Below are positions 6,094-52,212 of a stretch of 64,000 nucleotides of DNA, piece after piece. The translations under genes and the position numbers were made by a program. This DNA is from a virus, in IMG/VR virus record IMGVR_UViG_3300027833_001738, positions 1-64,000 of that record. One strand, written 5' to 3'. Under the pieces are notes generated by a model. The model was not told where the DNA came from, made no database searches, and saw only the letters and a list, made by a program, of their open reading frames with translations. The stretch's first letter is position 1; each line of letters starts with the position of its first letter.

Positions 6094-6573
6094 ATGATAT
6101 TAGGTAAAATAAAATTGATAATCATTATGGCCGCTATTACAGGAGTAGTAGGATTTGGTGCATGGAAATATTATCAATATACACAAGAACAAATTGGCAT
6201 CTATAGAGAAAATGCGGCAAAGGCAGAATTGGCACAACAAGCCTCTGAAGCGGCTGTCAAGGCTATACAAAAAGACTTAGTAGAAGTACAAGCACAGTAT
6301 ACTAGAGTGTCTGATGACTTTAAAGTTGCAAATTCAAGGGTAGATAAATTAGAAACTAAACTAAGTGAACATGAACTTGGAGACTTAGCACAAGCAAAAC
6401 CAAAATTAATCGAAAGAATAGTTGACAAAGGTACCAAAGATGTGTTAAGATGTTATGAGATACTAACTGGTTCTCCACTAACTGAAAAAGAGATTGCGGC
6501 GACCAAGAAGTCACAAGTGAACACAACTTGTTCAGATGTGGCAAATCCTAACTATACGGGGCCAAGACCATGA
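6094..6573 (+). CDS. Inner-membrane spanin (Rz-like)
   Basis: A 159-residue protein with an N-terminal transmembrane segment (about residues 5-25, IKLIIIMAAITGVVGFGAW). A long Ala/Gln/Glu-rich coiled coil spans about residues 35-105, and the C-terminus contains EILTGSPLTEKEI and Cys residues. This is the i-spanin layout. It overlaps the lipoprotein gene by ATGA, the usual Rz/Rz1 arrangement. Spanins fuse inner and outer membranes in the last lysis step, which requires a Gram-negative host. Confidence 0.82.
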   Translation: MILGKIKLIIIMAAITGVVGFGAWKYYQYTQEQIGIYRENAAKAELAQQASEAAVKAIQKDLVEVQAQYTRVSDDFKVANSRVDKLETKLSEHELGDLAQAKPKLIERIVDKGTKDVLRCYEILTGSPLTEKEIAATKKSQVNTTCSDVANPNYTGPRP

Positions 6574-7022
6574 TTAAAACAACATTACTAGCAGGAGCAT
6601 TAGCAGTAACACTTAGTGGATGTTCATCTATGCTACCAAAAACAGTTGACTATTCAGCAAAACCCGTAGAACGACCATTACTCGTTCTACCAGAATCTGA
6701 GATAACGAATATGAAAGAAGTAGATTATCTTGTGGTCACAGAAGAAAATATAAATGATGTTTGGAGAGAATTAGAAGCGGCAGGCAAACCTGTTGTATTA
6801 TTTTCACTCACACACGAAGGTTATGAAGCGTTAGCATTAAACAATGCTGAAGTGATTAGATATCTTTCCGAACAAAAAGCAATTCTGATTGCATACAAAG
6901 AATATTACGAAAAAGCCGACAAGGCGATTGAAGATGCGAATGTTATTGCTACTGCGGAAGATGCACTTGAGTCTAAACCAAGTTCACTTTCAAAAATCAA
7001 ATCATTCCTTAAATCAGATTAA
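6570..7022 (+). CDS. Outer-membrane lipoprotein spanin (Rz1-like)
   Basis: A 150-residue protein with a lipoprotein signal: basic start, hydrophobic core, lipobox L-S-G-C with Cys18. The mature part begins with a Pro-containing stretch (KPVERPLLVLPESE) and then a folded region (VDYLVVTEENINDVWRELEA, FSLTHEGYEALALNNAEV). It is longer than classical Rz1 but lies directly behind the i-spanin gene with a four-base overlap. Its role is to bridge to the i-spanin from the outer membrane. Confidence 0.78.
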   Translation: MIKTTLLAGALAVTLSGCSSMLPKTVDYSAKPVERPLLVLPESEITNMKEVDYLVVTEENINDVWRELEAAGKPVVLFSLTHEGYEALALNNAEVIRYLSEQKAILIAYKEYYEKADKAIEDANVIATAEDALESKPSSLSKIKSFLKSD

Positions 7023-17620: not shown

Positions 17621-18103
17621 ATGAATAAAAGTAATTTTAAATATCATATTAGACTGAAAATGACAGAAGAGTTACCAAAGGCAGATGTCCGAGGTATCAT
17701 AACTGTTCTTAAAAAAGCAGTAGTAAACATTTTTCAGCCATTAGAAGATGGTACAGCCGTGATTTATCATTTAGGTAATGAAGCCCTGTATGAACACATA
17801 TATGATTTTAGATTAAATCGAGGTGTATCAGAAGAAGAAGCAGAGGTCATTCTTGGTCTTATAACAGACTGGACAGAAGAAGACTTTATAATGGAAATCA
17901 CAACTACAGACACTTACGAATTGCCAGAAGGTGAATCAGAAGTCGATTTAACTGCTATGAAACATAACAGATGGATGACAGAAAAAGTAGACAATGGTTG
18001 GAGATATGGCTTACAATTCAATGAAGAAGATAAAACAGACCCACGATTACGCCCTTACGACCAACTAACAGATAAATTGAAAAATATATCAGAAAAAGGT
18101 TGA
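17621..18103 (+). CDS. RyR-domain protein
   Basis: A 160-residue protein. The C-terminal 50 residues read HNRWMTEKVDNGWRYG followed by EDKTDPRLRPYDQLTDKLKN. This is the RyR repeat signature (H-x-W-x6-GW-x-YG ... K-x-x-P-x-L-x-P-y-x-x-L). RyR domains occur in ryanodine receptors and scattered bacterial and phage proteins, where their ligand is mostly unknown. The N-terminal about 100 residues (KADVRGIITVLKKAVVNIFQ) are unrecognised. Expressed late with the holin-like gene. Confidence 0.68.
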   Translation: MNKSNFKYHIRLKMTEELPKADVRGIITVLKKAVVNIFQPLEDGTAVIYHLGNEALYEHIYDFRLNRGVSEEEAEVILGLITDWTEEDFIMEITTTDTYELPEGESEVDLTAMKHNRWMTEKVDNGWRYGLQFNEEDKTDPRLRPYDQLTDKLKNISEKG

Positions 18104-18152: not shown

Positions 18153-18692
18153 ATGTCAGGAACAAAAAGATTATATAATTTAGATGAAAAGAACTATTTC
18201 AAGTTCTTTGGTGTCGAAGAAAAGCAAGGAACTAGTATCCGAAGTCTTTCTACGCACTACAAAAAGATTCTAAACTTATTAAAAGACGATAATTCATTTA
18301 TCGGGAGAGACCATAAAGAGTTCGCACACCGAGCCTTTAATACATTGGTCGACCCTATCTTACGTGCAAGATACATTTTAGAAACCAATGGACACGAATG
18401 GGATTTTAGAGACGGTACAACTCCAGAAGACTTGAGTTTTATCTCTGATTTGAGAGTTCAACTTACTAGAGCAAACTTACAATATGAACTTGAGAATTTT
18501 ATTTTTGAACTGAAAGGACATACCAACTTTATCATAGAACAGATTGAAGAAAGTATTGATATTTACAGTAATTACAAGACAGCCATTGGGCTGATTAATC
18601 GATTTTACGAGATATCTCATCTACATGAAGAGGCATCAGGTAAGAAATATGAAGTAGAACAAGGAATACACCACGGTGTGTTCGACCACTAG
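18153..18692 (+). CDS. HscB-like Fe-S cochaperone with degenerate J-domain
   Basis: A 179-residue protein of HscB length and order: an N-terminal J-like region (YFKFFGVEE, RAFNTLVDPILRARYIL) and a C-terminal helical region with Glu/Leu-rich helices. The segment FNTLVDPILRARYILETNGH matches HscB [20 protein letters not shown]. HscB normally has His-Pro-Asp to stimulate HscA; here the equivalent stretch is LLKDDNS, so HPD is lost. The protein may bind the IscU scaffold without activating HscA. It is followed by an IscA-like gene, which strengthens the Fe-S assignment. Confidence 0.75.
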   Translation: MSGTKRLYNLDEKNYFKFFGVEEKQGTSIRSLSTHYKKILNLLKDDNSFIGRDHKEFAHRAFNTLVDPILRARYILETNGHEWDFRDGTTPEDLSFISDLRVQLTRANLQYELENFIFELKGHTNFIIEQIEESIDIYSNYKTAIGLINRFYEISHLHEEASGKKYEVEQGIHHGVFDH

Positions 18693-18704
18693 AGAGGAAG
18701 TAAA

Positions 18705-19025
18705 ATGATTTTTACAGAGAATGCGGCTGAACGTGTTAAGGAAATTATTTCAGAAGACCAAGAAGAAGTACAAGCACTTAGAGTATTTGTACAAGGTGGT
18801 GGATGCCACGGTTTTAGTTATGGATTTGGTTTTGAAAATGATATCGCAGATGATGATACTGTTATTGAAACCAGTGAAGTGAAATTAGTAGTTGATAGCA
18901 TGAGCATCATGTATCTTTCAGAAGCAACTATTGATTTTGTTAGAAGCCTAGAAGGCGAACGTTTTACAATCGACAACCCATCAGCAAGAACATCTTGTGG
19001 ATGTGGTTCAAGTTTTTCAGCATAG
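18705..19025 (+). CDS. A-type Fe-S carrier (IscA/ErpA/HesB family)
   Basis: A 106-residue protein with the three conserved cysteines of A-type carriers: Cys34 (GGGCHGFSYGF), Cys98 and Cys100 (TSCGCGSSFS). Length and spacing match IscA. The family carries or hands over Fe-S clusters or iron to apo-proteins. hesB-like genes are known in marine T4-like phages. With the neighbouring HscB-like gene it forms a small Fe-S module. Two radical-SAM proteins in this window would be Fe-S clients, but a direct link is inferred only. Confidence 0.93.
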   Translation: MIFTENAAERVKEIISEDQEEVQALRVFVQGGGCHGFSYGFGFENDIADDDTVIETSEVKLVVDSMSIMYLSEATIDFVRSLEGERFTIDNPSARTSCGCGSSFSA

Positions 19026-19032
19026 GAGCAAC

Positions 19033-19269
19033 ATGTCAATTGAACAAGAAATAATGGAAGTCGTAGCGAAGCGATTAAAGTGGAATGAAAACGACTTGTC
19101 ATTAGAATCAAATCTGAAAGAAGATTTAAAAGCAGATAGCATCGATTCAGTAGAGGTGCTATTTGAAATCGAAGAAATGTACGACATTGTAATAGAAGAT
19201 GAACTAGCAGAAGATATTAATACTGTTGGTGACATCGTAAATGTTGTAAATTCTCTACAAAACGTGTAA
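19033..19269 (+). CDS. acpP: Acyl carrier protein
   Basis: A 78-residue acidic protein with the phosphopantetheine site D-S-I-D-S-V-E (Ser36, the same position as in E. coli ACP) and the flanking helices typical of ACP (LKEDLKADSIDS, FEIEEMYDIVIEDELAEDI). The ATG at 19033 follows AGGAGC; earlier in-frame codons overlap the IscA gene. ACP carries acyl chains as thioesters on a host-attached pantetheine arm. A phage ligase and ketosynthase at 47409-52212 are likely partners. Bacterial IscS-Isd11-type links between ACP and Fe-S assembly are another possibility given its neighbours. Confidence 0.92.
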   Translation: MSIEQEIMEVVAKRLKWNENDLSLESNLKEDLKADSIDSVEVLFEIEEMYDIVIEDELAEDINTVGDIVNVVNSLQNV

Positions 19270-19463: not shown

Positions 19464-20291
19464 ATGAATACTTTATTGAGAACCGCAATTGTGGGTACGG
19501 CATTGTTAGCAACGCCATTCGCCGCATTTGCCGAAGCAGAAGCAGAAACGCAATCAGGCGTCTCAGTTTCTGGTACATACGAGGGTACTGCTACAGATTC
19601 AGGTACATACACACAAGAACTTGAAGTTGTGGTTGGTATGAACTCTGAGGCTGGTTCAGTTACAGCGAAAGTTGATGAAACTGGAACTGTAGGTGATTTG
19701 TACCTTGACACATCAATTTCTTCAATTGACCTTAGACTTGGTAAAGTAGATGGTGAAATGGGAATGAAAGCGTCTACTACAGTCGCTGGTGTCACAGTTT
19801 CAGCATACAGCCCATCTGGCGCAGGCAAATCTACAGAGATTGGCGCTAGTACAGATATTGGTCCTTTGAACGTAGCAGGCGAAGACATCTTAGATTCTGA
19901 TAGACTTCTAAGTGCAGGCATGAACGTAGCAGGTGTTGACTTAGGTGGTTCATACCAAAAGACAACAACTGGAACTAACCAAATCATGGATGCTGGTTTA
20001 GATGTTATGGATATTACTGTATCAGTAGCAAACGCATCAATCGGTGATGCAAGTGTTACTAAAACTGGTGATAACAAACATGCGTTGTTAGGTACAATGA
20101 CAGGTGCTACAAACGGCACAGATGTTAGAGGTATCAAAGTTGCGTATGGTGACCTTTCTGCAAAAGTAGTTGAACTAAATGCTACTAACACATATACTGT
20201 TGCTTTAGAGCGTGGTATTATGACTTATCAATATGATAAGATTGAAAATGGTGCAGATGAAGTCTCAGTAGGACTTAAACTTACTTTCTAA
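19464..20291 (+). CDS. Exported outer-membrane beta-barrel (porin-like) protein
   Basis: A 275-residue protein with a clear signal peptide (cleavage about 23/24, PFAAFA-EAE). The mature part is Gly/Thr/Ser-rich with alternating strands (VSVSGTYEGTATDSGTYTQE, DLRLGKVDGEMGMKASTTVA) and ends in VSVGLKLTF. A terminal Phe is the BAM recognition signature of outer-membrane barrels. It is expressed from an early promoter with a long leader and ends at a strong terminator, so it is a self-contained unit. It could change outer-membrane permeability or mask receptors. A virion location is less likely because of the signal peptide. Confidence 0.68.
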   Translation: MNTLLRTAIVGTALLATPFAAFAEAEAETQSGVSVSGTYEGTATDSGTYTQELEVVVGMNSEAGSVTAKVDETGTVGDLYLDTSISSIDLRLGKVDGEMGMKASTTVAGVTVSAYSPSGAGKSTEIGASTDIGPLNVAGEDILDSDRLLSAGMNVAGVDLGGSYQKTTTGTNQIMDAGLDVMDITVSVANASIGDASVTKTGDNKHALLGTMTGATNGTDVRGIKVAYGDLSAKVVELNATNTYTVALERGIMTYQYDKIENGADEVSVGLKLTF

Positions 20292-20321: not shown

Positions 20322-20349
20322 AAAAGCCCGTCTTAATGACGGGCTTTTT
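20322..20349 (+). terminator. Rho-independent terminator
   Basis: Stem GCCCGTC/GACGGGC (20326-20332 with 20338-20344), loop TTAAT, then TTTTT. Confidence 0.93.
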
Positions 20350-20365
20350 CTTTATGTCTACTATT

Positions 20366-20373
20366 GATAAATA
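20366..20373 (+). promoter_or_regulatory. T4-type late promoter
   Basis: GATAAATA 42 nt before the ExbB-like gene; it drives the envelope operon 20415-23439. Confidence 0.65.
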
Positions 20374-20414
20374 TAGTTAGATAGAACAAATTAAAATAAA
20401 AGTGGGAGAGAACC

Positions 20415-20855
20415 ATGAGTAAATCATTTCTACAATGGTGGTTATTTTTTGTGTTACAAGTAATCATATTGGCAGCCGCATACGTGTATGAATTGCATTT
20501 ATATATCCTTAACAATGACCAAACCTACATTTCCTTTGTATTACTAGGAATCTGGTTACTAACGAGTTGTCGAATTGGTTATAAGATGGGTAAAAATATG
20601 AAATCATCGAATGAAAAGTTTTGGTTTGTTGCTGAAACTTGTATGGCTATCGGTATGATGGGTACAGTGTTAGGCTTTATTCTTATGTTAGGTGGTTCAA
20701 ACTTAGCATCTATCGACCCGTCAGATGTAGAAGGTATGAAAGGCGTGATTGGTCAGTTAGCCAGTGGTATGGCAACTGCACTATTAACAACTCTAACCGG
20801 TCTAATTGTTTCTGTATCTTTGAGAACACAGTTAATGATTGGAGAGGGTGAGTAA
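20415..20855 (+). CDS. MotA/TolQ/ExbB-family proton channel subunit
   Basis: A 146-residue protein with three probable membrane helices (about 8-28, 37-55 and 75-140 region). The signature of the family is present: AIGMMGTVLGFILML followed by ASGMATALLTTLTGLIVSV, the G-x-x-G-T-V-x-G and A-L-x-T-T-x-x-G-L motifs of TolQ/ExbB. It is shorter than TolQ (230). It is immediately followed by a TolR/ExbD-topology protein, overlapping by one base, so the two should form a proton-driven complex. Confidence 0.78.
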   Translation: MSKSFLQWWLFFVLQVIILAAAYVYELHLYILNNDQTYISFVLLGIWLLTSCRIGYKMGKNMKSSNEKFWFVAETCMAIGMMGTVLGFILMLGGSNLASIDPSDVEGMKGVIGQLASGMATALLTTLTGLIVSVSLRTQLMIGEGE

Positions 20856-21553
20856 TGTCTAAAAACCGATACGGTTCTAACCTATCGTTCAATGATGTAT
20901 TGTTTAACGCACTTTTAGGTTTTGTAGTTTTATTCGTATTAGCACTTCTGCTAATCAATCCAATTACAAAGAAATCAGATATTCCAGCGAAAGCAGAAAT
21001 ACTTATCACATTAGAATGGGATGATGAGTCTGCTGATGATATTGATATATGGGTTCAAGGTCCTATGATGGGCGCACCTATTAGTTTCCAAAACAAACAT
21101 AGTGGATATATGCACCTAGACAGAGATGATTTAGGTAGAACATCTGATTTTATGTGGATAGATGGTGACAGAATAGTTATTAAAATAAACCGTGAAGTTG
21201 TGAGTATGCGTGGTATTGCACCTGGTGATTACTTTATTAATATTCACGTTTATAATAAAGCGACCAATTCAGAGCCAACTAAATACACATTAACACTATT
21301 AGATGTTAATCCGTATAGAGAGGTTTATGTCATGCAAGGAGAACTAAGTGAACGCGGACAGATTATTAAACTTCCTGGATTTACATTAAACGAAGAGGGC
21401 GAAGTAACCGATGTTTGGACGAGTGACAAGATAGTTGTAGGTGCTAGAAACCTAAACAACGCTTCACAGTTTACACCAGTACCTGATAACACAGAAGATA
21501 CAGGTAATGAAGCACTTGAACGCCAACGCCAAGCACAAGAAGACGATATTTAA
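20855..21553 (+). CDS. ExbD/TolR-topology partner with large periplasmic domain
   Basis: A 232-residue protein: short cytoplasmic start, one membrane helix (about residues 14-35, LFNALLGFVVLFVLALLLIN) preceded by SFNDV, then a long soluble domain with strands (ILITLEWDDESADDIDIWVQ, YFINIHVYNKA). ExbD/TolR proteins have this topology with an Asp in the helix; here the Asp is at the helix N-terminal end (FNDVLF). The periplasmic domain is not a standard ExbD domain. It overlaps the ExbB-like gene, so pairing is likely. Assignment rests on topology and context. Confidence 0.6.
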   Translation: MSKNRYGSNLSFNDVLFNALLGFVVLFVLALLLINPITKKSDIPAKAEILITLEWDDESADDIDIWVQGPMMGAPISFQNKHSGYMHLDRDDLGRTSDFMWIDGDRIVIKINREVVSMRGIAPGDYFINIHVYNKATNSEPTKYTLTLLDVNPYREVYVMQGELSERGQIIKLPGFTLNEEGEVTDVWTSDKIVVGARNLNNASQFTPVPDNTEDTGNEALERQRQAQEDDI

Positions 21554-21564
21554 GGAGAATACAA

Positions 21565-22242
21565 ATGTTTTGGAATCAAATGACAGTAGATACAATGATA
21601 CTGCTTTATATCGCAGGCTTGTTTGTGTTGATTCTTGTGTGTTTATATGCTCTCATTGAAAGTAAAGCAAACAAACTTTACACATTCATCATAATTCCAT
21701 TAGCATTAATTATGGCAAGTATGACTTGGCAAGGTATCAAACTTCTACAAGGTATGCCAGTTTATGGTCTACCAGAAAACCAAGAAGTAGAAGTCATGTG
21801 GGTCAATGACAATAAGCCATGGATATATGCGGTACTAAAAATAGATAAAGAACCAGTTCTTTTTAAGATTGATTGGTCAGAAGAAAATAAAAAGAAGATG
21901 AAAGAACTTAAACAAGCAATCGGTTCATCTTTGGCACAAGGTAAGTTTAAAATAAAGACAAACAAAGGAGAATCTGAATCTTATCATTTCACTCCTATGC
22001 AAGATTTGTCAGAGCCTGAAGAAAAACGCAGAGACGATGGTGTTACTTTTCAACCAGCAGAGACTAATAACTCATCTGTATTAGATTACGTAGGCGAAGA
22101 AACAAGAATTGAAAGACCAGGAGATTTCAGACCAAGTTTAAGAACAACAGTTACAGTAGTAGATGGAGACCCAGTTATATTTGAGAGACCACCAGTGCGT
22201 GAACTCTATACGGGTAGTGAACACAACGCAGGAGGAAAATGA
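21565..22242 (+). CDS. Membrane protein of the ExbB/ExbD-like operon
   Basis: A 225-residue protein with two N-terminal membrane helices (MILLYIAGLFVLILVCLYAL and YTFIIIPLALIMASM) and a hydrophilic C-terminal domain of about 150 residues rich in Glu/Lys and Pro/Arg. It starts 11 nt after the ExbD-like gene behind AAGGAG. Its function is unknown; it is probably a further subunit of the envelope complex. Confidence 0.7.
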   Translation: MFWNQMTVDTMILLYIAGLFVLILVCLYALIESKANKLYTFIIIPLALIMASMTWQGIKLLQGMPVYGLPENQEVEVMWVNDNKPWIYAVLKIDKEPVLFKIDWSEENKKKMKELKQAIGSSLAQGKFKIKTNKGESESYHFTPMQDLSEPEEKRRDDGVTFQPAETNNSSVLDYVGEETRIERPGDFRPSLRTTVTVVDGDPVIFERPPVRELYTGSEHNAGGK

Positions 22243-22511
22243 TGGAAGGTATAGGAGCAGTATTAGTAATAGGGCATTTTATAGTGTCGATATTTCAGGT
22301 ACAACTAGGAGGACCAGTTATTTACTCGTTGCCCTTTTCAGATATGAAAACATGTGAGCAATATGCACAGTATTTGCCAAAAGACCCAATTAAATTGGAT
22401 ATAGAATGGAATCATTCAACTAGAAGTCAATGTATGACCACTGACCAATTTAAAAAGATGATGGAAGCAAGGGGAGTTCAAAAGCCAGCAACAGGTACGC
22501 CTGAGGAATAA
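22242..22511 (+). CDS. Small membrane-anchored protein
   Basis: An 89-residue protein with one N-terminal hydrophobic segment (IGAVLVIGHFIVSIFQVQL) and a soluble tail with two Cys (KTCEQYAQYL, SQCMTTDQF) that could form a periplasmic disulfide. GGAGG lies 6 nt before ATG 22242; the ATG at 22239 is closer than usual. Unknown function, same operon. Confidence 0.65.
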   Translation: MEGIGAVLVIGHFIVSIFQVQLGGPVIYSLPFSDMKTCEQYAQYLPKDPIKLDIEWNHSTRSQCMTTDQFKKMMEARGVQKPATGTPEE

Positions 22512-22519
22512 GGATTATT

Positions 22520-23368
22520 ATGAGAAAACTAATAGATTACATAAAAGAGACATTCATTGGAAGAACAATACGTTGGATATTTAGAAATCCTTATTTTATT
22601 GTAGTCATAGTTTTGCTTGGGGTAGTAGGACAAGATAAAGGCGTTCAGTGGTATGATGAGTACATGGTATTGTACCAAGAAGCAAATAACAAAATTGAAG
22701 AAGAAGAGAACACAGGCGGATTAGAATTAAAAAAGATTGATGATGCGTTATACACATTAATGGGTACAGTAAAAGAAGGTGACTGTGGAAAGATTGCAAA
22801 AAAAATGCCAGACCAAGGCTATTTCACTGTGATATTAGAAAGTCCAGGTGGCAATCTTGCAGATGGTTCTTGTCTTGCGGCACATATGAAACTTCGTAAT
22901 GTTGTTACTGTTGTTAGAAGTACACCAGTTATGAATCAACTAGGTGAAATGATTTATACACCAGGAACAAATGTTGACGAAAACACACCAGACTTTATGA
23001 AAGGTAAATCAGTTTGTGCATCAGCATGTGGATTGATGTTTTTAGCAGGCGACAAAAGATACCTAATAGGTGATGTATATTTTGGTATTCATGGTCCGGG
23101 AACTCCTCCAGGTAGTATGAATGGTGCAAATCCTGCGGCTATTGAAAGTTCTGCATTTAGAACAGCATCATCATTGTTGCAGTTGTTGAAATCTTTAGGT
23201 GTTGAAGACGAAGGTTTAAGAATGTTATTCATTCAAATTCCAAACGCAACGATGTATTGGTTGCATCCACGAGACTTTGAAGTTAAACCAGGACTAGTTA
23301 GAATAGCAACAGACTATAGAGATTTCTTTGGCACTACAGGTAGTGACCCAGAAGGTGGTATGAGATGA
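22520..23368 (+). CDS. Membrane-anchored ClpP/crotonase-fold protease-like protein
   Basis: A 282-residue protein with an N-terminal membrane helix (about 25-40, PYFIVVIVLLGVVG). The soluble domain has LESPGGNLADGSCLAAHMKL (the SPGG loop) and VCASACGLMFLAGDKRYL, where Ser168 in C-A-S-A-C is at the ClpP-fold nucleophile position, then FGIHGPG with a candidate His. This is the periplasmic ClpP-like family with C-x-S-A-C. Topology places the protease outside the inner membrane. It lies in the ExbB/ExbD-like operon, so it may cleave or activate an envelope target. Confidence 0.78.
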   Translation: MRKLIDYIKETFIGRTIRWIFRNPYFIVVIVLLGVVGQDKGVQWYDEYMVLYQEANNKIEEEENTGGLELKKIDDALYTLMGTVKEGDCGKIAKKMPDQGYFTVILESPGGNLADGSCLAAHMKLRNVVTVVRSTPVMNQLGEMIYTPGTNVDENTPDFMKGKSVCASACGLMFLAGDKRYLIGDVYFGIHGPGTPPGSMNGANPAAIESSAFRTASSLLQLLKSLGVEDEGLRMLFIQIPNATMYWLHPRDFEVKPGLVRIATDYRDFFGTTGSDPEGGMR

Positions 23369-23439
23369 CTACAAAAGACAAATTATTGATGACACTCGTT
23401 GCAATAGTAATTTCAGGATACATAGTATTTCTTAATTAA
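23365..23439 (+). CDS. Tiny membrane protein (24 aa)
   Basis: ATGA overlap with the preceding stop. It is almost entirely one hydrophobic helix (LLMTLVAIVISGYIVFLN). It is the last gene of the operon. Coding is supported by coupling and composition only. Confidence 0.5.
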   Translation: MTTKDKLLMTLVAIVISGYIVFLN

Positions 23440-23456
23440 GCATAACTTCTAATTTG

Positions 23457-23464
23457 TATAAATA
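23457..23464 (+). promoter_or_regulatory. T4-type late promoter (perfect consensus)
   Basis: TATAAATA, the exact T4 late -10 box, followed at the expected start by a hairpin TATACGA/TCGTATA (23468-23474 with 23481-23487). It drives the SbmA-like gene. Confidence 0.75.
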
Positions 23465-24586: not shown

Positions 24587-24622
24587 GTCGTACAGAGAAT
24601 GTCTCTTTGTACGACTTTTTTA
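24587..24622 (+). terminator. Rho-independent terminator
   Basis: Stem GTCGTACA/TGTACGAC (24587-24594 with 24608-24615) with inner GAGA/TCTC, then TTTTTT. A weak late-like box GTAAATAC lies just upstream at 24577. Confidence 0.88.
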
Positions 24623-24634
24623 TTGGAGAGGATT

Positions 24635-25087
24635 ATGAAATTATCAGCAACACTTGGTGGAATAGGTTTAGCAATTCCTCTAATAGCAGGACTATACGGA
24701 AGTTTAAGTTACGTAACTGGATTACAGAATACAATAGAGACAAATGAAAAGCAGATTGCATCTATGCAAATGTCAACTGAAAATGATTTCAAATCATTAG
24801 ACACAATGATGAATAGTGAAATAGAAAAACTAGACATTCGTTTGAAGGCTGTTAATGAACTTTATAAGCAAGGACGTGAAGAAATGCTTATTGAGATGAC
24901 TAACTTTGCTACACAGATTGCAAGAATACAAGTATTAGCCGAATCACTAAGAGATGCACAGTATAAACTGGCAAGTGATGCTGAACTACAAGCAATGGAA
25001 CAAAGTTATTATAAGTTGAGTGATGCTCTCAATCAAATGAAATATGACTTGAAAGAGATGCAAAGACAACTCAATGGAGGATACTAA
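24635..25087 (+). CDS. Membrane-anchored coiled-coil protein
   Basis: A 150-residue protein with an N-terminal hydrophobic segment (LGGIGLAIPLIAGLYGSLSY) followed by about 110 residues of heptad-like helix (EKLDIRLKAVNELYKQGREE, LRDAQYKLASDAELQAME). The ATG at 24635 follows GGAGAGG; an upstream in-frame start lies inside the terminator. The function is unknown; it resembles an additional envelope or spanin-like anchor. Confidence 0.68.
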   Translation: MKLSATLGGIGLAIPLIAGLYGSLSYVTGLQNTIETNEKQIASMQMSTENDFKSLDTMMNSEIEKLDIRLKAVNELYKQGREEMLIEMTNFATQIARIQVLAESLRDAQYKLASDAELQAMEQSYYKLSDALNQMKYDLKEMQRQLNGGY

Positions 25088-39484: not shown

Positions 39485-39694
39485 ATGACTACACCCGTAA
39501 GACCAGACGTTGATGAAAAGAAACGTACACGGCTCATATATCTAAAAAAACAACACAGAGACCTAGACAATGGTATCACTACTGCATATAAAATGCGTAC
39601 TGAAGACTTAATAGTTTCTAAACTCAAGTTGAAGAAGTTACATCTAAAAGAAGAAATTCTAAAATTAGAAGAAGAGTTAGCAGAGAACTTGTGA
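39485..39694 (+). CDS. YdcH/DUF465-like small helical protein
   Basis: A 69-residue basic helical protein. LKKQHRDLDNGITTAYK followed by KLKLKKLHLKEEILKLEEEL matches the DUF465/YdcH pattern (H-x-x-L-D-x-x-I ... L-K-K-x-K-L-x-L-K-D-E-I). The function of the family is unknown. It overlaps the Apt start by four bases. Confidence 0.6.
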   Translation: MTTPVRPDVDEKKRTRLIYLKKQHRDLDNGITTAYKMRTEDLIVSKLKLKKLHLKEEILKLEEELAENL

Positions 39695-40242
39695 CTATTA
39701 TAAAACCAACTCCAAAGACTATACAAAATCTGATTAGAGTAATACCAGACCATCCTAGGCCTGGTGTTCTCTATCAGGATATGGCTAGTATATTTAATGC
39801 ACCTCAAGGTCTACAACATGTAATGACTTTGTTTTCGGACTATATTGAAACAAACAATATTGAGTTTAACAAAATCATTGGGCTAGATGCTCGTGGATTT
39901 CCTATGGCAGGTGCATTAAGTTCACAAACTGGTATACCATTTTCTATGGCTAGAAAGAAAGGTAAACTACCAGGTGAAACTATCTTTACACAATATGAAC
40001 TAGAATATGGAACTGATGAATTACATCTACAGAAAGATGCAATACAAAGAGGTGACAAAGTTCTGGTCATAGATGATGTTATTGCAACTGGTGGGACACT
40101 AGGTGCTGTGATTACATTAACTGATAGATTTGGTGCTGATATTAGTAGTATACTAAGTATAATGGAACTAGAGTTTTTAGGTGGTGGTGCTAAGTTACGA
40201 GACGACGGCTACGATGTATACTCTATACTCCAAGAACAATAA
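39691..40242 (+). CDS. apt: Adenine phosphoribosyltransferase
   Basis: A 183-residue PRTase. IRVIPDHPRPGVLYQDM is the APRT N-terminal strand region, DARGFPMAGALSSQTGIPF and RKKGKLPG form the flexible/substrate loop, and VLVIDDVIATGGTL is the PRPP-binding motif. All family elements are there. The start is GTG overlapping the previous stop. It salvages adenine to AMP, feeding nucleotide synthesis in replication, and could also clear adenine released from S-adenosylmethionine metabolism. Confidence 0.93.
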   Translation: MTIIKPTPKTIQNLIRVIPDHPRPGVLYQDMASIFNAPQGLQHVMTLFSDYIETNNIEFNKIIGLDARGFPMAGALSSQTGIPFSMARKKGKLPGETIFTQYELEYGTDELHLQKDAIQRGDKVLVIDDVIATGGTLGAVITLTDRFGADISSILSIMELEFLGGGAKLRDDGYDVYSILQEQ

Positions 40243-40261
40243 CATAAATTAAAGGGTTTAA

Positions 40262-41344
40262 ATGAACAACTATATTTTTACAAGCGAAAGTGTAAGCGAT
40301 GGACATCCAGATAAAGTTTCTGACCAGATTAGTGATGCATTAGTTGATGCAGGACTAAAGAATGGTGATGAAACTACTCGTGTTGCTATCGAAACACTTG
40401 TAACCACTAACCATGTAACAGTAGCGGGTGAAGTAAAGAACTTTAACGTAGATAATGTAAAAGATATCATACGAGATAAAGTTAAAGAAATTGGATACGA
40501 ACAAGATGGATTCCATTGGGATAATCTAAACATCTATGACGAGATTCATGCACAGTCAGGTGACATTGGATTGGGAACAGATAACTTCGGTGCAGGTGAC
40601 CAAGGTATTATGTTTGGCTATGCAACTAATGAGAATGATGCAATGCTACCAGCACCAATTCATTACTCACATGAAATTCTAAAGAAACTAAAAGAACTTC
40701 GATTAGATGGGTATGAATTCTTACTACCAGATGCAAAATCACAAGTAAGTATTCAATATGTTGGCGGTCGTGTTCAACGTGCAGACCAAATCGTAGTAAG
40801 TACGCAACATAAAAAGGGCTTTGAGCATAGTCTCAGGTCACCTGTCAAAGATGCAGTCAACAGTGTAATGGGAGATTTAATAGACAATGAAACTACTTGG
40901 CATATCAATCCTACAGGCAATTTTGTCATTGGTGGTCCTGATGGCGATACAGGACTCACCGGGCGTAAGATTATCGTTGATACTTATGGTGGCTATGCTC
41001 CCCATGGTGGTGGTGCCTTTTCTGGAAAAGACCCCACAAAAGTCGACCGAAGTGCCGCCTACATGGCAAGGTGGTTAGCAAAAAATGTTGTAGCAGATAA
41101 TATGGCAGATTGGTGTCAAATTCAATTGTCATATGCTATTGGCGTTAAAGAGCCTACAAGCATTTATATAGATAGCAATGGACACAACAGAACTATTCAA
41201 AAGTTTATCGAAGAAAACATTGACCTAACACCAAAGGGTATCATTGATAGATTTGATTTATTCAAGTTTTATGGTTATAGTGAAAACTGTACATATGGAC
41301 ATTTTGGTGATAAAGATGTTCCGTGGGAAAAGATTGGATGGTAA
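40262..41344 (+). CDS. metK: S-adenosylmethionine synthetase
   Basis: A 360-residue protein (E. coli MetK 384). SVSDGHPDKVSDQISDALVD at the N-terminus, GAGDQGIMFGYA for ATP binding, GGGAFSGKDPTKVDRSAAYM for phosphate binding, and ARWLAKNVVADNMA near the C-terminus are all hallmarks. It makes S-adenosylmethionine from methionine and ATP. The phage encodes at least one methyltransferase and two radical-SAM enzymes that use it. It follows Apt after 19 bp. Confidence 0.96.
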   Translation: MNNYIFTSESVSDGHPDKVSDQISDALVDAGLKNGDETTRVAIETLVTTNHVTVAGEVKNFNVDNVKDIIRDKVKEIGYEQDGFHWDNLNIYDEIHAQSGDIGLGTDNFGAGDQGIMFGYATNENDAMLPAPIHYSHEILKKLKELRLDGYEFLLPDAKSQVSIQYVGGRVQRADQIVVSTQHKKGFEHSLRSPVKDAVNSVMGDLIDNETTWHINPTGNFVIGGPDGDTGLTGRKIIVDTYGGYAPHGGGAFSGKDPTKVDRSAAYMARWLAKNVVADNMADWCQIQLSYAIGVKEPTSIYIDSNGHNRTIQKFIEENIDLTPKGIIDRFDLFKFYGYSENCTYGHFGDKDVPWEKIGW

Positions 41345-47408: not shown

Positions 47409-48794
47409 ATGATATTTGAAACTATAAAAAACCAATCACAATTACATCGGCATAAAACCGCAGTAATTTGTGGTGATAAACAATATACCTACACTGAACT
47501 TATTGAGAGTGTAGAAAAACTGGCTGCCGTTATGTCTACTGCATTTCGTCCAGGTGACAGATTGTTATTTGCTAGTGGCAAAGAATATCATTATATTAGA
47601 ATGGTATTGGCATGTGATATTCTCGGTGTAACATTCATGCCTACATTTCCAAATCTGCCAAAAGATGTAGTAAGTGGAATAGTAGAAGCAAGTTCACCAG
47701 ACCATATTATACTAACTGAGGCTGATGCTTTAGCCTTAGAACCGCACAACAAAGCATTGATATATTCTAAGAAAACAGACCACACATATACAGTATTATT
47801 CACAAGTGGTACAACCGGTAAACCTAAAGCAGTTGCACATACGAGTGCAGGATGTTTGATGGCTTGTTTCAATAGTATTAGTGTGTATCAAATGAGTTCA
47901 AATGATGTAATACTATCTCAATTACCACCATCAACCGTAGGAGGCTTGTATCTATTCGCACTTCCAGGACTAATCAAAGGTTGTACAGTTGTAATCGAAC
48001 AGTTCAATCCTAGACGATTTGTGAAGTTATGTGAAGAATTTAAACCAACAATAGGCATAATTGTTCCAGCAATGATACTTGCTATGCAGAATTTAAAGAC
48101 ATGGAATGAATTAGATATGTCTCATTGGAGAGAACTAAGTGTTGGTAGCACAATTATACCAGAAGAAATGTTAGACATTCTATTCAGTAAAGGTGTCCCT
48201 ACCATCAGAGATTTATATGGGTGTACTGAAACTCAAGTTCCAGCATTCACATTCTTAATTGAACCAGATACTGAACACAAATTACAACTTGAATGTAATG
48301 ACCAATATGAATACAAATTAGATAGGCATGACCAGTTATGGTTAAAAAGTCCCCTACTAATGAGTAACTATCTGAATGTAGATGCAGAACTAGACAGTGA
48401 TGGTTTTTGGTGTACGGGTGATGTATTTGAACGTAAGTATAATAAACTATTTTACAAGTCTCGTAGAAAAGATTTAATGAAAATCAACAGCCACAATGTA
48501 TCACCAATTGGCATAGAAAATGCTATATTAGTATTAGACGGTGTTGATGAAGTATGCGTGATATCTAAAGAACGAGGTTTAGGTGAAAAATATATCGTAG
48601 CAATTATAAGTAGTCAGGACCCACAGATAAATAAATCGTTAGTAATGAACGCTATAGAAAGTAAACTCATGCCGTATGAACTTCCTAAAGATATAATCGT
48701 TACTAAAGAAACTCTGCCTAGAAATCAGATGGGCAAAATACAGAGACATGTTATACAAGGCATATATGGAGAAGTCAATGAAGACCAAAGTTAA
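47409..48794 (+). CDS. Acyl-adenylate-forming ligase (ANL superfamily)
   Basis: A 461-residue protein with the adenylation motifs in order: LFTSGTTGKPKA (A3 P-loop, 130-141), LYGCTET (A5), CTGDVF (A7), RRKDLMKINSHNVSPIGIEN (A8 hinge region) and the A10 catalytic Lys443 (NQMGKIQRH). The set is complete, so it should activate a carboxylic acid with ATP and pass it to a thiol (CoA or ACP). The substrate cannot be read. It is the first gene of an operon with the halogenase, an acyltransferase-like protein and a ketosynthase; the phage ACP (19033) is a likely acceptor. Confidence 0.92.
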   Translation: MIFETIKNQSQLHRHKTAVICGDKQYTYTELIESVEKLAAVMSTAFRPGDRLLFASGKEYHYIRMVLACDILGVTFMPTFPNLPKDVVSGIVEASSPDHIILTEADALALEPHNKALIYSKKTDHTYTVLFTSGTTGKPKAVAHTSAGCLMACFNSISVYQMSSNDVILSQLPPSTVGGLYLFALPGLIKGCTVVIEQFNPRRFVKLCEEFKPTIGIIVPAMILAMQNLKTWNELDMSHWRELSVGSTIIPEEMLDILFSKGVPTIRDLYGCTETQVPAFTFLIEPDTEHKLQLECNDQYEYKLDRHDQLWLKSPLLMSNYLNVDAELDSDGFWCTGDVFERKYNKLFYKSRRKDLMKINSHNVSPIGIENAILVLDGVDEVCVISKERGLGEKYIVAIISSQDPQINKSLVMNAIESKLMPYELPKDIIVTKETLPRNQMGKIQRHVIQGIYGEVNEDQS

Positions 48795-50466
48795 AAAGAT
48801 AGTTGTTGTTGGTGGTGGCGTAGGCGGTTGGCTATCTGCATCTTGGCTAAAGACAAAACATCCAGAACTAGACATAACTCTTATTGAAAGTGATAGAGTA
48901 GGAACTATTGGAATTGGTGAAAGTGTTTTACCACGCCTAGGAACTATGTTAAGCGATATAGGGCTAGAAGAACGTGAGTGGATGTCTTATACACATTCAA
49001 TATACAAACTTGGTAATAAATTTATTGGCTGGAATATTCCAGGTAAAAGAGACCATGTTACTAATCATTGGTGGCCTTCTAAGTTTGATGAATCATATTA
49101 TGGATTTTCTTATGCTCTACCTGAAGAACACTTAGCATCCAGTTATTACAATCAATTGAAGACTAATGATTTGTTTCACAACTCTAAAGGTAAAGAAGGT
49201 GTTGATGATAAATGGAATGATTATTGGTTACAACTAGCACGTGACGGTAGAAAGAACTTATGGGAGATTGCACAAGATACACAAGAAGCAACTTACTTGA
49301 TGGACTATTGTAAGTCTCCTTACGATATGAATGACAATTTGATGTTGGGTTCATGGGAAAGTCTAACATATCATATCGATGCAAATAGATTTCCGAAACT
49401 AATTAAAGATAGAGTTGCAATACCAAAAGGTGTTAAGCACATACATGCACATATATCTGAGGTTAAAAAAGACAATGACGGTTACATATCATCTGTAGTA
49501 ACAGACACAGGCAAAGAATACAGTGGTGATTTATTTTTAGATTGCACAGGCTTTCATAGAGTTCTTACAAAAGAAATGGATGTCGAATGGAAACCTTATG
49601 ATGAAATTACCACGGACAATTTAATCTTTGCACCAATAAAATACAACGACCCAGTAAAAGAAATGCGTCCATATACTATGAGCAACGCAATGGATGAAGG
49701 TTGGTTGTTTATCATTTCATTATATAATAGAATGGGTTCAGGTTATATATTTGATGCTAGTGAGATATCTCCAGAAGATGCAATGAAGAAGTATAAAAAG
49801 TATTGGGAAGGTCACGAGTTTATAAGAGAACCTAGACATATAAAATGGGATGCTGGTAAATACGATACACAATGGAATAACAATGTAGTATCAATCGGAA
49901 TGACTGGTGGAATGATTGAACCTATGGAAGCAAACGTGTTAGCACTAGCACAGGCTGGTATGAAAATGGTTGAGCGAATTATTTCACGTGCAGACGAAAA
50001 TGATGAAGTGATTGGCAAAGCATCAATCAAGGCATATAATAGTAATCTAAATTGGCTGTTCGATAACATAACAAAATTTGTAGACTATCACTATACTTTA
50101 AGTGACAGAACTGACACACCTTTCTGGGCTAAAAAACACCAAAGAGGCATTGATGAAAACCATAAAGAAGAAATATGGAAACAGTATAGAAATCCTAGAT
50201 GCACACCAGAATCAGGTGTACCAGATTATATGTGGGCACAAGTAGCCGTTTCTATGGACAAGTTCGATGATGATGTTGAACTTCATATTCGTCCAGACTT
50301 ATTAGAGAAAGCAAACGAATCATTTGAATGGTTAAGAAAGTCTAGTAAACGAAATGGAATATATGCACCAAACGCCTATGAATGGAATAAGAAAATGCTA
50401 TTCGGTGACCGAACTCATAGTGAAGTACTAGAAGAAAGTTTAAAACCACAAGATGAAAATAGTTAA
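48778..50466 (+). CDS. Flavin-dependent halogenase-like protein (tryptophan halogenase family)
   Basis: A 562-residue protein; GGAG lies 6 nt before ATG 48778. Residues 12-17 form the FAD site (GGGVGG). GIGESVLPRLGTML is the family GESVLP region. The catalytic Lys aligns as Lys77 (SIYKLGNKFIGW; K79 in PrnA/RebH). GSGYIFDASEISPEDAM and MIEPMEANVLALA (Glu381/Glu384) are further family segments. The usual W-x-W-x-I-P motif is changed to WLFIIS (309-314), so substrate or activity may differ. Viral halogenases such as VirX1 of a cyanophage are known. It overlaps the ligase by 17 bp. Confidence 0.83.
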   Translation: MKTKVKKIVVVGGGVGGWLSASWLKTKHPELDITLIESDRVGTIGIGESVLPRLGTMLSDIGLEEREWMSYTHSIYKLGNKFIGWNIPGKRDHVTNHWWPSKFDESYYGFSYALPEEHLASSYYNQLKTNDLFHNSKGKEGVDDKWNDYWLQLARDGRKNLWEIAQDTQEATYLMDYCKSPYDMNDNLMLGSWESLTYHIDANRFPKLIKDRVAIPKGVKHIHAHISEVKKDNDGYISSVVTDTGKEYSGDLFLDCTGFHRVLTKEMDVEWKPYDEITTDNLIFAPIKYNDPVKEMRPYTMSNAMDEGWLFIISLYNRMGSGYIFDASEISPEDAMKKYKKYWEGHEFIREPRHIKWDAGKYDTQWNNNVVSIGMTGGMIEPMEANVLALAQAGMKMVERIISRADENDEVIGKASIKAYNSNLNWLFDNITKFVDYHYTLSDRTDTPFWAKKHQRGIDENHKEEIWKQYRNPRCTPESGVPDYMWAQVAVSMDKFDDDVELHIRPDLLEKANESFEWLRKSSKRNGIYAPNAYEWNKKMLFGDRTHSEVLEESLKPQDENS

Positions 50467-51064
50467 AACATTTATAGGTAAGAATAGTTTTGAATTCAAT
50501 CTTGTAGAATATGACCAAAGTCTACAGAGTGATTTAGAAGATTTCTGTAAGCGATGCGACCAAGAAGGTTACAGTAACAACGCAAGTTTGAAAGCGTTAA
50601 AACTTGGCAAATGGGGTGACTTAGAAAAGTGGTGGGTTGTATATCATAAAGATAAGATTATCAGCATGAGTGGTGCCCATTATTTTCCACACTTACATTC
50701 TAAATGTTTTATTATATTGAGTAGAATGGCTACAATGAAGGCATACAATGGAATGGCATCACCTTCTGTATCGGCTAGAAAGATGCAACATAACTTTGCA
50801 TTTGGAGTTTTCATGCCAGTTCAAATAGACTGGTGTTTAGAAATGGGTGCTACTGATATTATTGGAACTACTAACTCGCCAGAAAATGATACAGATAATA
50901 GTGGCACCATGTTTAAAGTCCATGAATATGCGAATAAGTTTTTTAAGATAGGCGATAAAGCAACTAGAATACATAAAGACTTTCCAAGTTACAATACACT
51001 ACAAGATATTTGGAGATTTAATGTAAGAGACTTTGCGACAATGGAAAAGATAAAATACAAATGA
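50453..51064 (+). CDS. GNAT/acyltransferase-fold-like protein
   Basis: A 203-residue protein. Elements such as KWWVVYHKDKIISMSGAHYF, ILSRMATMKAYNGM and DIIGTTNSPENDTDNSGTMF give a GNAT-like beta-alpha pattern, but a clear acetyl-CoA loop (R/Q-x-x-G-x-G/A) is not obvious. It overlaps the halogenase by 14 bp and the ketosynthase by four, so it is cotranslated with them. Acyl-ACP or acyl-CoA dependent acylation is plausible, inferred from context. Confidence 0.5.
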   Translation: MKIVKTFIGKNSFEFNLVEYDQSLQSDLEDFCKRCDQEGYSNNASLKALKLGKWGDLEKWWVVYHKDKIISMSGAHYFPHLHSKCFIILSRMATMKAYNGMASPSVSARKMQHNFAFGVFMPVQIDWCLEMGATDIIGTTNSPENDTDNSGTMFKVHEYANKFFKIGDKATRIHKDFPSYNTLQDIWRFNVRDFATMEKIKYK

Positions 51065-52212
51065 CAGTATATATTAACGCAATTAGCGGTCTAACTCCTT
51101 TTGGTGACCTAGAAGACACATGGAAGGCAATAACAAATGATGAAGTTTGTTACGGTCCTCTTACTAAATTTCCACATGATAAGAGCATCAGGTCTAAGGT
51201 TTCAGGTGAGGTTAAGTTTAATGCTGAAAACCATCCTATCATAACTGAAAGAGAACAAGATAAAATGCCATCGTATATGCAATGGGCATTATCATCAGCA
51301 GATAAATTATTACACAAACAAGATTTAGAAAAAGACAGAACTGGTGTTCTTGTATCAACTGCCCTTAGTATGTATAACGAATCTCTACGAGCAAGTGAAA
51401 ATAAGAATGTCAACACTTATACATTCACCCCAAATCTTATATCAAACAATATCAATATTAAATATGGTTTTACAGGACCAAGTACAATGTTGTCTAGTGC
51501 GTGTTCTACAGGACTGTACAGTATCATTATGGGTTGTATGATGATTGAAACAGGGCAAGCCGATAACATAATTGCTGGTGCATTTGATGATTCGATTTAT
51601 AAAGATGCATATAAACAGTTCGGTAAACTAAGAGCATTGTCAACAAAGTACAATGAAACTCCTGAAATAGCAAGTCGTCCATGGGATAAAGATAGAGACG
51701 GACTAGTTCTCAGTGAGGGTGGTGCATTATTCTTATTATCAAAAACTAAGACAGAAGATACAATAGCAGAGATATCTGGATATGCAATGAATAACGATGC
51801 ATATCAGCCTGTTGCTCCGCATCCAGACGGGACTATGATAGAAAAATGTATGAAAGATGCACTGTTTTATCGCACACCAGACTTAATCAATGCACATGCA
51901 ACATCTACCCCTAAGGGCGATTATATTGAGGTGGATGCAATCAATAGATTAGGACTAGAAGATGTATGGGTAACAGCAAATAAGTCGCAAATTGGTCACT
52001 TAATGGGGGCTGCCGGTGCAATAGAGACTGCTTTAAGCGTACTTTCACTAGAAAATGACATTATTACACCATCTTTAAACATAAATGAACTAGAAGATGG
52101 TTATAATATAAAATACACACCAACAACCATATCACACGAAGTTAATTCAGTACTGTGTAACAGTTTTGGATTTGGTGGTACAAATGCATGTATTTTGTTA
52201 TCAAAAACTTGA
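51061..52212 (+). CDS. Beta-ketoacyl-ACP synthase (KAS II/FabF-like)
   Basis: A 383-residue protein (FabF 413). The catalytic triad is complete: Cys148 (SSACSTGLYS), His279 (NAHATSTPKGD) and His313 (IGHLMGAAGAIE), with the C-terminal SFGFGGTNAC. It should condense malonyl-ACP with an acyl starter. It overlaps the GNAT-like gene, and an early promoter lies just after it. Together with the ligase, ACP and halogenase it suggests synthesis of a short, possibly halogenated, acyl product. It could instead substitute for host FabF in membrane lipid making. Confidence 0.93.
   Translation: MTVYINAISGLTPFGDLEDTWKAITNDEVCYGPLTKFPHDKSIRSKVSGEVKFNAENHPIITEREQDKMPSYMQWALSSADKLLHKQDLEKDRTGVLVSTALSMYNESLRASENKNVNTYTFTPNLISNNINIKYGFTGPSTMLSSACSTGLYSIIMGCMMIETGQADNIIAGAFDDSIYKDAYKQFGKLRALSTKYNETPEIASRPWDKDRDGLVLSEGGALFLLSKTKTEDTIAEISGYAMNNDAYQPVAPHPDGTMIEKCMKDALFYRTPDLINAHATSTPKGDYIEVDAINRLGLEDVWVTANKSQIGHLMGAAGAIETALSVLSLENDIITPSLNINELEDGYNIKYTPTTISHEVNSVLCNSFGFGGTNACILLSKT

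Follow-up and report, generated by a model that had tools for sequence, protein, structure and literature searches.

A conserved three-gene module of phages and Proteobacteria with features of a proton-driven envelope motor and links to periplasm-acting enzymes

We analyzed a stretch of 64,000 nucleotides (the window) out of the 66.9-kb IMG/VR virus record IMGVR_UViG_3300027833_001738, in which an earlier sequence-only reading had singled out an operon built around a MotA/TolQ/ExbB-type channel protein and a partner of TolR topology. Three adjacent genes of this operon (20415 to 22242), encoding an ExbB-like channel subunit, a TolR-like subunit, and a third membrane subunit, form a conserved core; this core, its wide occurrence in phages and bacteria, and the presence of an SbmA-type transporter in its neighborhood all go beyond that first description. 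Motors of the MotA/TolQ/ExbB family are known in motility, outer-membrane upkeep, nutrient uptake, and antiphage defense. We judge it close to an even chance that the trio is an inner-membrane motor of three subunits, driven by protons, whose task is to position, power, or gate periplasmic hydrolases; in phages it would probably act late and in a lysis-related role.

The three genes are linked well beyond the window. Alignment-based scans with the TolR-like subunit yielded 189 viral and 394 genomic candidate relatives, and the best 80 of each were retained. The ExbB-like gene directly precedes and the third-subunit gene directly follows the TolR-like gene in 69 of the 80 viral loci, with one of the two partners present in the remaining 11; intergenic gaps in the viral trio loci are mostly 30 bp or less, and the outer neighbors vary widely. 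TolR-like genes in cultured phages were found solely in 27 rhizobial records, and in those inspected, the classic phage 16-3 included, they again adjoin ExbB-like and third-subunit genes. Homing endonuclease-like genes lie within the trio of three rhizobial temperate phages (L202, 5252 to 5989; L203, 5243 to 6001; L204, 6556 to 7098), inserted at the ExbB-like/TolR-like or the TolR-like/third-subunit junction. In the window itself, all six open reading frames (ORFs) of the operon are present and closely packed, as first described: the ExbB-like stop and the TolR-like start overlap by one base (20855), and the third-subunit gene meets the following gene for a small Cys-containing protein in an ATGA overlap. 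The linkage anticipated in relatives is thus borne out by the 69 trio loci, and eight IMG/VR contigs are collinear over the longer set ExbB-TolR-third-Cys-ClpP-SbmA.

The channel subunit assigns the module to the MotA/TolQ/ExbB family by its match to Pfam MotA_ExbB (PF01618), where it passes the cutoff of 22.9 with 35.9 bits (E = 7.3e-9); versions from Rhizobium and temperate phages lie at the cutoff (22.5 to 23.2 bits) or have no match. A profile search of PDB chains placed MotA first (8gqy, 2.5e-6) and also recovered TolQ (0.0013). Hydropathy predicts four transmembrane (TM) segments in 46 of 60 members, and the loop following the second helix is longer in bacterial members than in phage members. 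Residues D35, G80, G83, T126, and G129 are invariant in the 60-sequence alignment, and T125 nearly so. The partner has one N-terminal helix, and its Asp14 is invariant among 67 sequences; the Asp is retained in 16-3-like phages as well. In TolR, ExbD, and MotB the corresponding Asp sits at the cytoplasmic end of the helix, and Asp14 is placed likewise. The channel-partner pair proposed by the sequence-only reading therefore holds up, as does the conservation of proton-channel residues on which it had staked the proposal, seen here at Asp14, T126, G80, G83, and G129. Because Asp14 (67 of 67) and T126, G129, and G83 (60 of 60 each) are kept alongside similarity to MotA and TolQ, the two proteins are predicted to act as a coupled proton-channel pair, and these features argue strongly for the trio being a motor.

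The periplasmic part of the TolR-like subunit had been called unusual, and so it proves. An AlphaFold2 model built with 67 homologues (mean predicted local distance difference test [pLDDT] score, 84.7) shows a helix at residues 8 to 34 followed by a β-sandwich. Searches returned no match to the ExbD, MotB, or ZorB families, with ExbD absent at E values up to 1, and none to PDB sequences with the TolR-like profile; bacterial members have a subthreshold match to DUF2135. Foldseek gave weak matches only, the best of them DUF4425 β-sandwiches and a Bacteroidales protein solved with bound calcium. As modeled, this β-sandwich falls outside the recognized ExbD/TolR/MotB domains and is a new element of the module. 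Eleven residues of the subunit are invariant across the 67 sequences, and since these include D62, D64, D91, D92, and E114, one may speculate that metal is bound.

The third subunit provides one connection to a hydrolase. Charges summed over 44 sequences are −12 for the N-terminal part, +64 for the interhelix loop, and −17 for the C-terminal part, and because the loop is net positive both ends are predicted to be periplasmic; its profile found nothing useful among PDB sequences. In 13 of the 80 viral loci this subunit is fused at its C terminus to a glycoside hydrolase family 24 (GH24) phage lysozyme (PF00959, Phage_lysozyme; E = 5e-42 to 3e-48 in the three tested), and the catalytic E-D-T motif could be read in 12 fusions. 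The predicted C-out end would lie in the compartment in which a lysozyme must act. Many further contigs of marine phages encode similar lysozymes as free-standing proteins, and no trio lay within the 3 kb fetched, so the fusion is best regarded as a special case.

Other enzymes recur with the trio in other phages. A secreted Trypsin_2 protease gene lies just upstream of the trio genes in the rhizobial temperate phages 16-3, NV1.1.1, RHph_TM3_3_14B, and RHph_X2_25, with homing endonuclease or other small genes interspersed among them, and in RHph_N3_13 a secreted trypsin-like protease gene lies 2 kb downstream; for the 16-3-like phage AP-16-3, the passages found in a 2023 paper (PMC10460002) assign a protease to p004 alone, which belongs to the structural block. 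Peptidase_M15_3 genes stand two or three genes away from the TolR-like gene in four viral loci. From phage to phage, one and the same motor is paired with different periplasm-acting enzymes, and it is chiefly this recurrence of hydrolases that argues for a hydrolase-linked role at the envelope.

In the window, the candidate enzyme is a membrane-anchored ClpP-like protein with one predicted N-terminal TM segment. The SPGG loop, the Ser of C-A-S168-A-C, H191 in a G-I-H motif, and D252 are invariant in nine relatives and recall ClpP/COG3904-type periplasmic proteins, from which it differs in its membrane anchor, in its tie to a phage trio, and in having no Pfam match, CLP_protease included. S168 and H191 align to the catalytic Ser and His of ClpP (hhalign, probability just 35%), and D252 was assigned by inspection only; the protein is therefore a putative protease, identified by motifs and weak similarity. 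Its profile recovers two proteins of Alphaproteobacteria in which the motifs follow one another in this order too; weak COG3904-like matches were all that appeared in 142 alphaproteobacterial genomes, and a search of cultured phages found no counterpart. The sequence-only reading had tied this protein to the channel pair within one operon, and of that proposal the recurring hydrolase link stands, but the core comprises three genes, the ClpP-like protein is an accessory of the window's clade, and SbmA is a neighbor too. The tiny membrane protein at the operon's end exists as an ORF and is present in three of nine sequences (Table 1).

TABLE 1 Features of the operon and its immediate surroundings in the window
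Feature	Position	Strand	Description
Outer-membrane β-barrel-like secreted protein, C-terminal Phe	19464..20291	+	Possible partner in a separate unit upstream; kept in six relatives
Apparent intrinsic terminator AAAAGCCCGTCTTAATGACGGGCTTTTT	20322..20352	+	Read from sequence; divides the upstream outer-membrane-protein-like gene from the operon
T4-late-promoter-like site GATAAATA	20366..20373	+	About 49 bp upstream of the ExbB-like gene
ExbB/MotA-like proton-channel subunit, 146 aa (amino acids)	20415..20855	+	Core subunit 1; 4 predicted TM segments; PF01618
TolR-like subunit, 232 aa	20855..21553	+	Core subunit 2; one TM helix with invariant Asp14; periplasmic β-sandwich (modeled)
Third core subunit, 225 aa	21565..22242	+	Two TM helices; predicted topology N-out/C-out, with the C-terminal domain in the periplasm; 49-sequence alignment
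Small protein, 90 aa	22239..22511	+	N-terminal hydrophobic segment, two Cys; co-occurs solely with the ClpP-like gene, in eight viral loci (cluster 31)
Membrane-anchored ClpP/COG3904-like putative serine protease, 282 aa	22520..23368	+	S168/H191/D252
Hydrophobic ORF, 24 aa	23365..23439	+	Found in 3 of 9 sequences
T4-late-promoter-like site TATAAATA	23457..23464	+	57 bp upstream of SbmA
SbmA/BacA-type transporter, 341 aa	23514..24539	+	PF05992, 1.2e-77, 261.9 bits (cutoff, 24)

The earlier description of the operon as late receives some support from promoter-like sites. The site GATAAATA is retained 45 to 49 bp 5′ of the ExbB-like start in all seven close sequences, and the window holds ten NATAAATAY sites, all on the coding strand. 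The sequence TATAAATA is underrepresented, with three copies (7366, 23457, and 39447, all on the plus strand) against 8.8 expected from shuffling. On the strength of the T4-late-promoter-like motif upstream of the ExbB-like gene we infer that the operon would be expressed late.

We envisage the trio working like a Tol/Exb-type motor. An oligomer of the ExbB-like subunit would assemble around the TolR-like helices to form a channel, and protons passing via Asp14 and Thr126 would move the β-sandwich; the third subunit, with its C terminus outside, would carry or contact an effector, which by phage may be a lysozyme, a trypsin-like protease, or, in the window, the membrane ClpP-like protein. Late in infection these effectors would loosen the wall or envelope and help open the host. 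SbmA, a family that is itself driven by the proton motive force (PMF), may move peptides across or act as part of the assembly. What the sequences show are the genes and how they are linked, the invariant residues, and the lysozyme fusions; proton flow, complex formation, force transfer, and a role in lysis are what we infer from them. A contribution to lysis, one of the roles proposed at the outset, is supported by the lysozyme fusions in relatives and would be the role of the trio in phages.

Several observations weigh against this interpretation. The lysozyme fusion is limited to one viral sub-branch of the tree described below and is lacking in most loci, the window included; the fold of the ClpP-like protein is unconfirmed, its AlphaFold2 model (nine sequences only) reaching a pLDDT of 42; and in many T4-like relatives the trio stands among DNA-metabolism genes and not within a lysis cassette. 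In many of the T4-like loci a cytoplasmic ClpP gene lies one to three genes upstream of the trio, and we did not use this as evidence because it may be ordinary phage gene order. Finally, the function of the core may be broader than lysis, because the bacterial copies lie in PQQ (pyrroloquinoline quinone)/methanol dehydrogenase clusters.

In bacteria, the order is ExbB-like, TolR-like, and third subunit, usually followed by a lipoprotein (71 of 80 loci) in place of the hydrolases of the phage loci. A PQQ-linked gene is present in 37 of the 49 genomic loci with full 6-kb flanks, compared with none of the 80 viral loci, and the neighbors include PQQ methanol/ethanol dehydrogenase, PqqB, PqqC, MoxJ-type, PedC, and PQQ β-propeller proteins. 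A survey of 250 Burkholderiales genomes found the TolR-like gene in six, five of them strong matches; all five encode a PQQ dehydrogenase above the cutoff (59 of 250 genomes overall do), located about 1.5 to 25 kb from the TolR-like gene on the same contig, with one of the five having served as the search center. In a quick tree with long branches and a midpoint root only, viral sequences fall in several branches and hold most of the sampled diversity, with bacterial sequences in two branches and rhizobial phages in one. Recent copying of a host PQQ-linked set into phages is not favored, because no PQQ-linked gene occurs in the 80 viral loci and phage sequences hold most of the diversity. It is possible, though we lean against it, that the module represents a new class of envelope machine, driven by protons, built of three subunits, and widespread in phages and Proteobacteria. 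Such a machine would couple proton flow to enzymes of the periplasm, serving motor-gated lysis or breaching with exchangeable hydrolases in phages and PQQ/lanthanide-dependent alcohol oxidation in bacteria.

The module shares features with several known systems and fits none of them fully. It resembles TolQ-TolR and ExbB-ExbD in its channel Pfam family, its gene order, and a one-TM partner with an invariant Asp, but it has a four-TM channel subunit, an additional third subunit, and a partner domain nearest to DUF4425/DUF2135-type β-sandwiches; TolA, TonB, TolB, and Pal were not found beside the trio among the operon and flanking genes scanned. With MotA-MotB it shares the four-TM channel subunit, the Asp near the start of the partner helix, and its best PDB match, but the phage forms have no large cytoplasmic loop and no OmpA-like wall-binding domain was recognized. 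Zorya likewise is a proton-driven envelope complex in phage-host conflict, and PADLOC reports a weak ZorA match (1.7e-6); membership was rejected, as the match reaches 22 bits against a cutoff of 100 and the partner does not match ZorB. No long ZorA tail or cytosolic effector gene was recognized, and here the module is carried by the phage. For Tol-Pal, Ton, and Zorya alike, the partner domains and partner genes expected of a member were not found among the genes scanned. The fused lysozyme has the E-D-T active-site motif of GH24 phage endolysins (T4/R21-like), but in the relatives that have it the domain is anchored via the two TM helices of a motor subunit, and it is absent from the window. 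The literature searched on phage TolQ/ExbB, on ExbB in rhizobial and pelagic phages, and on ExbB in lanthanide-dependent methanol oxidation, which took in few subscription journals, does not describe the module.

Two other functions deserve weight, each of them unlikely and neither ahead of the other. First, the module may guard the envelope against superinfection, the inner-membrane motor and its hydrolases or protease blocking DNA entry or destroying incoming phage proteins. The cassettes of temperate rhizobial phages do sit in accessory-looking regions (in 16-3, between the immX locus and attP/int), and ZorA is the closest named antiphage relative of the channel subunit; however, T4 imm and other known exclusion genes belong to the early class, whereas the window's clade has a late-promoter-like site, a lysozyme fused to a subunit is better suited to cutting wall, and ZorB is not matched. 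Second, the trio could energize uptake as a Ton-like import module that works with SbmA and an outer-membrane barrel to feed the infected cell. SbmA/BacA genes of two divergent types lie downstream of the trio in 14 of the 80 viral loci (six of them without the ClpP-like gene), a barrel-like secreted protein is encoded immediately upstream in the window, and the bacterial trio adjoins quinoprotein-dehydrogenase and, in some loci, TonB-receptor-like genes. The barrel label comes from sequence appearance alone, since profile scans gave that protein no family match, and against uptake stand the lack of an adjacent TonB or TolA, the hydrolase fusions, which it hardly accounts for, and the small benefit of a new uptake system late in infection.

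A motor coupled to hydrolases also accounts better for the partners than does a proton leak, which we consider improbable. Here the ExbB-like protein would mainly dissipate the PMF, acting as a trigger in the manner of a holin or shutting down host systems that run on the PMF; the short four-TM protein is free of the long loop of bacterial members, and PMF collapse triggers known phage lysis systems, but the conserved partners and long-kept β-sandwich point to coupled work and bacteria keep the same trio on their chromosomes. Least probable is that the module acts in counterdefense, as a decoy for Zorya or another motor complex of the host, for the weak ZorA similarity that suggests it is no more than common MotA_ExbB ancestry would give, the third subunit and β-sandwich had no Zorya counterpart in our searches, and the bacterial copies adjoin metabolic genes.

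The virus is of marine origin, and the contig is probably a fragment of a T4-superfamily phage with an alphaproteobacterial host, because its phage-type DNA polymerase (phrog_262) is closest to those of the jumbo phages Sinorhizobium phage Phosso and Agrobacterium phage Atu_ph07 (47 to 48% identity); a nucleotide search of the operon against cultured phages gave no match. Elsewhere in the window, a possible spanin-like pair, without family confirmation, lies at 6094 to 7022, where a lipoprotein-like ORF overlaps that of a coiled-coil protein with a TM segment, and a gene at 24599 to 25087 has a weak Rz-like spanin match (0.0071). A RyR-domain protein is encoded at 17621 to 18103 (5.9e-11), followed at 18153 to 19269, just upstream of the barrel-like gene, by adjacent genes for an HscB-like cochaperone (weak), an ErpA-type iron-sulfur insertion protein (7.6e-44), and an acyl carrier protein (at 18997). 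Together with this carrier protein, a cluster at 47409 to 52212 encoding an AMP-binding ligase, a tryptophan halogenase, a small protein, and a β-ketoacyl synthase looks like a phage-borne biosynthetic pathway. The phage also carries S-adenosylmethionine synthetase and phosphoribosyltransferase genes (39691 to 41344).

Should the module act on the envelope, this would represent a new phage use of the proton gradient. The lysozyme fused to a motor subunit is a directly testable design, and phage 16-3 offers a tractable laboratory system for the module. For bacteria, the copies beside methanol dehydrogenase genes provide a first structural hypothesis for that gene set.

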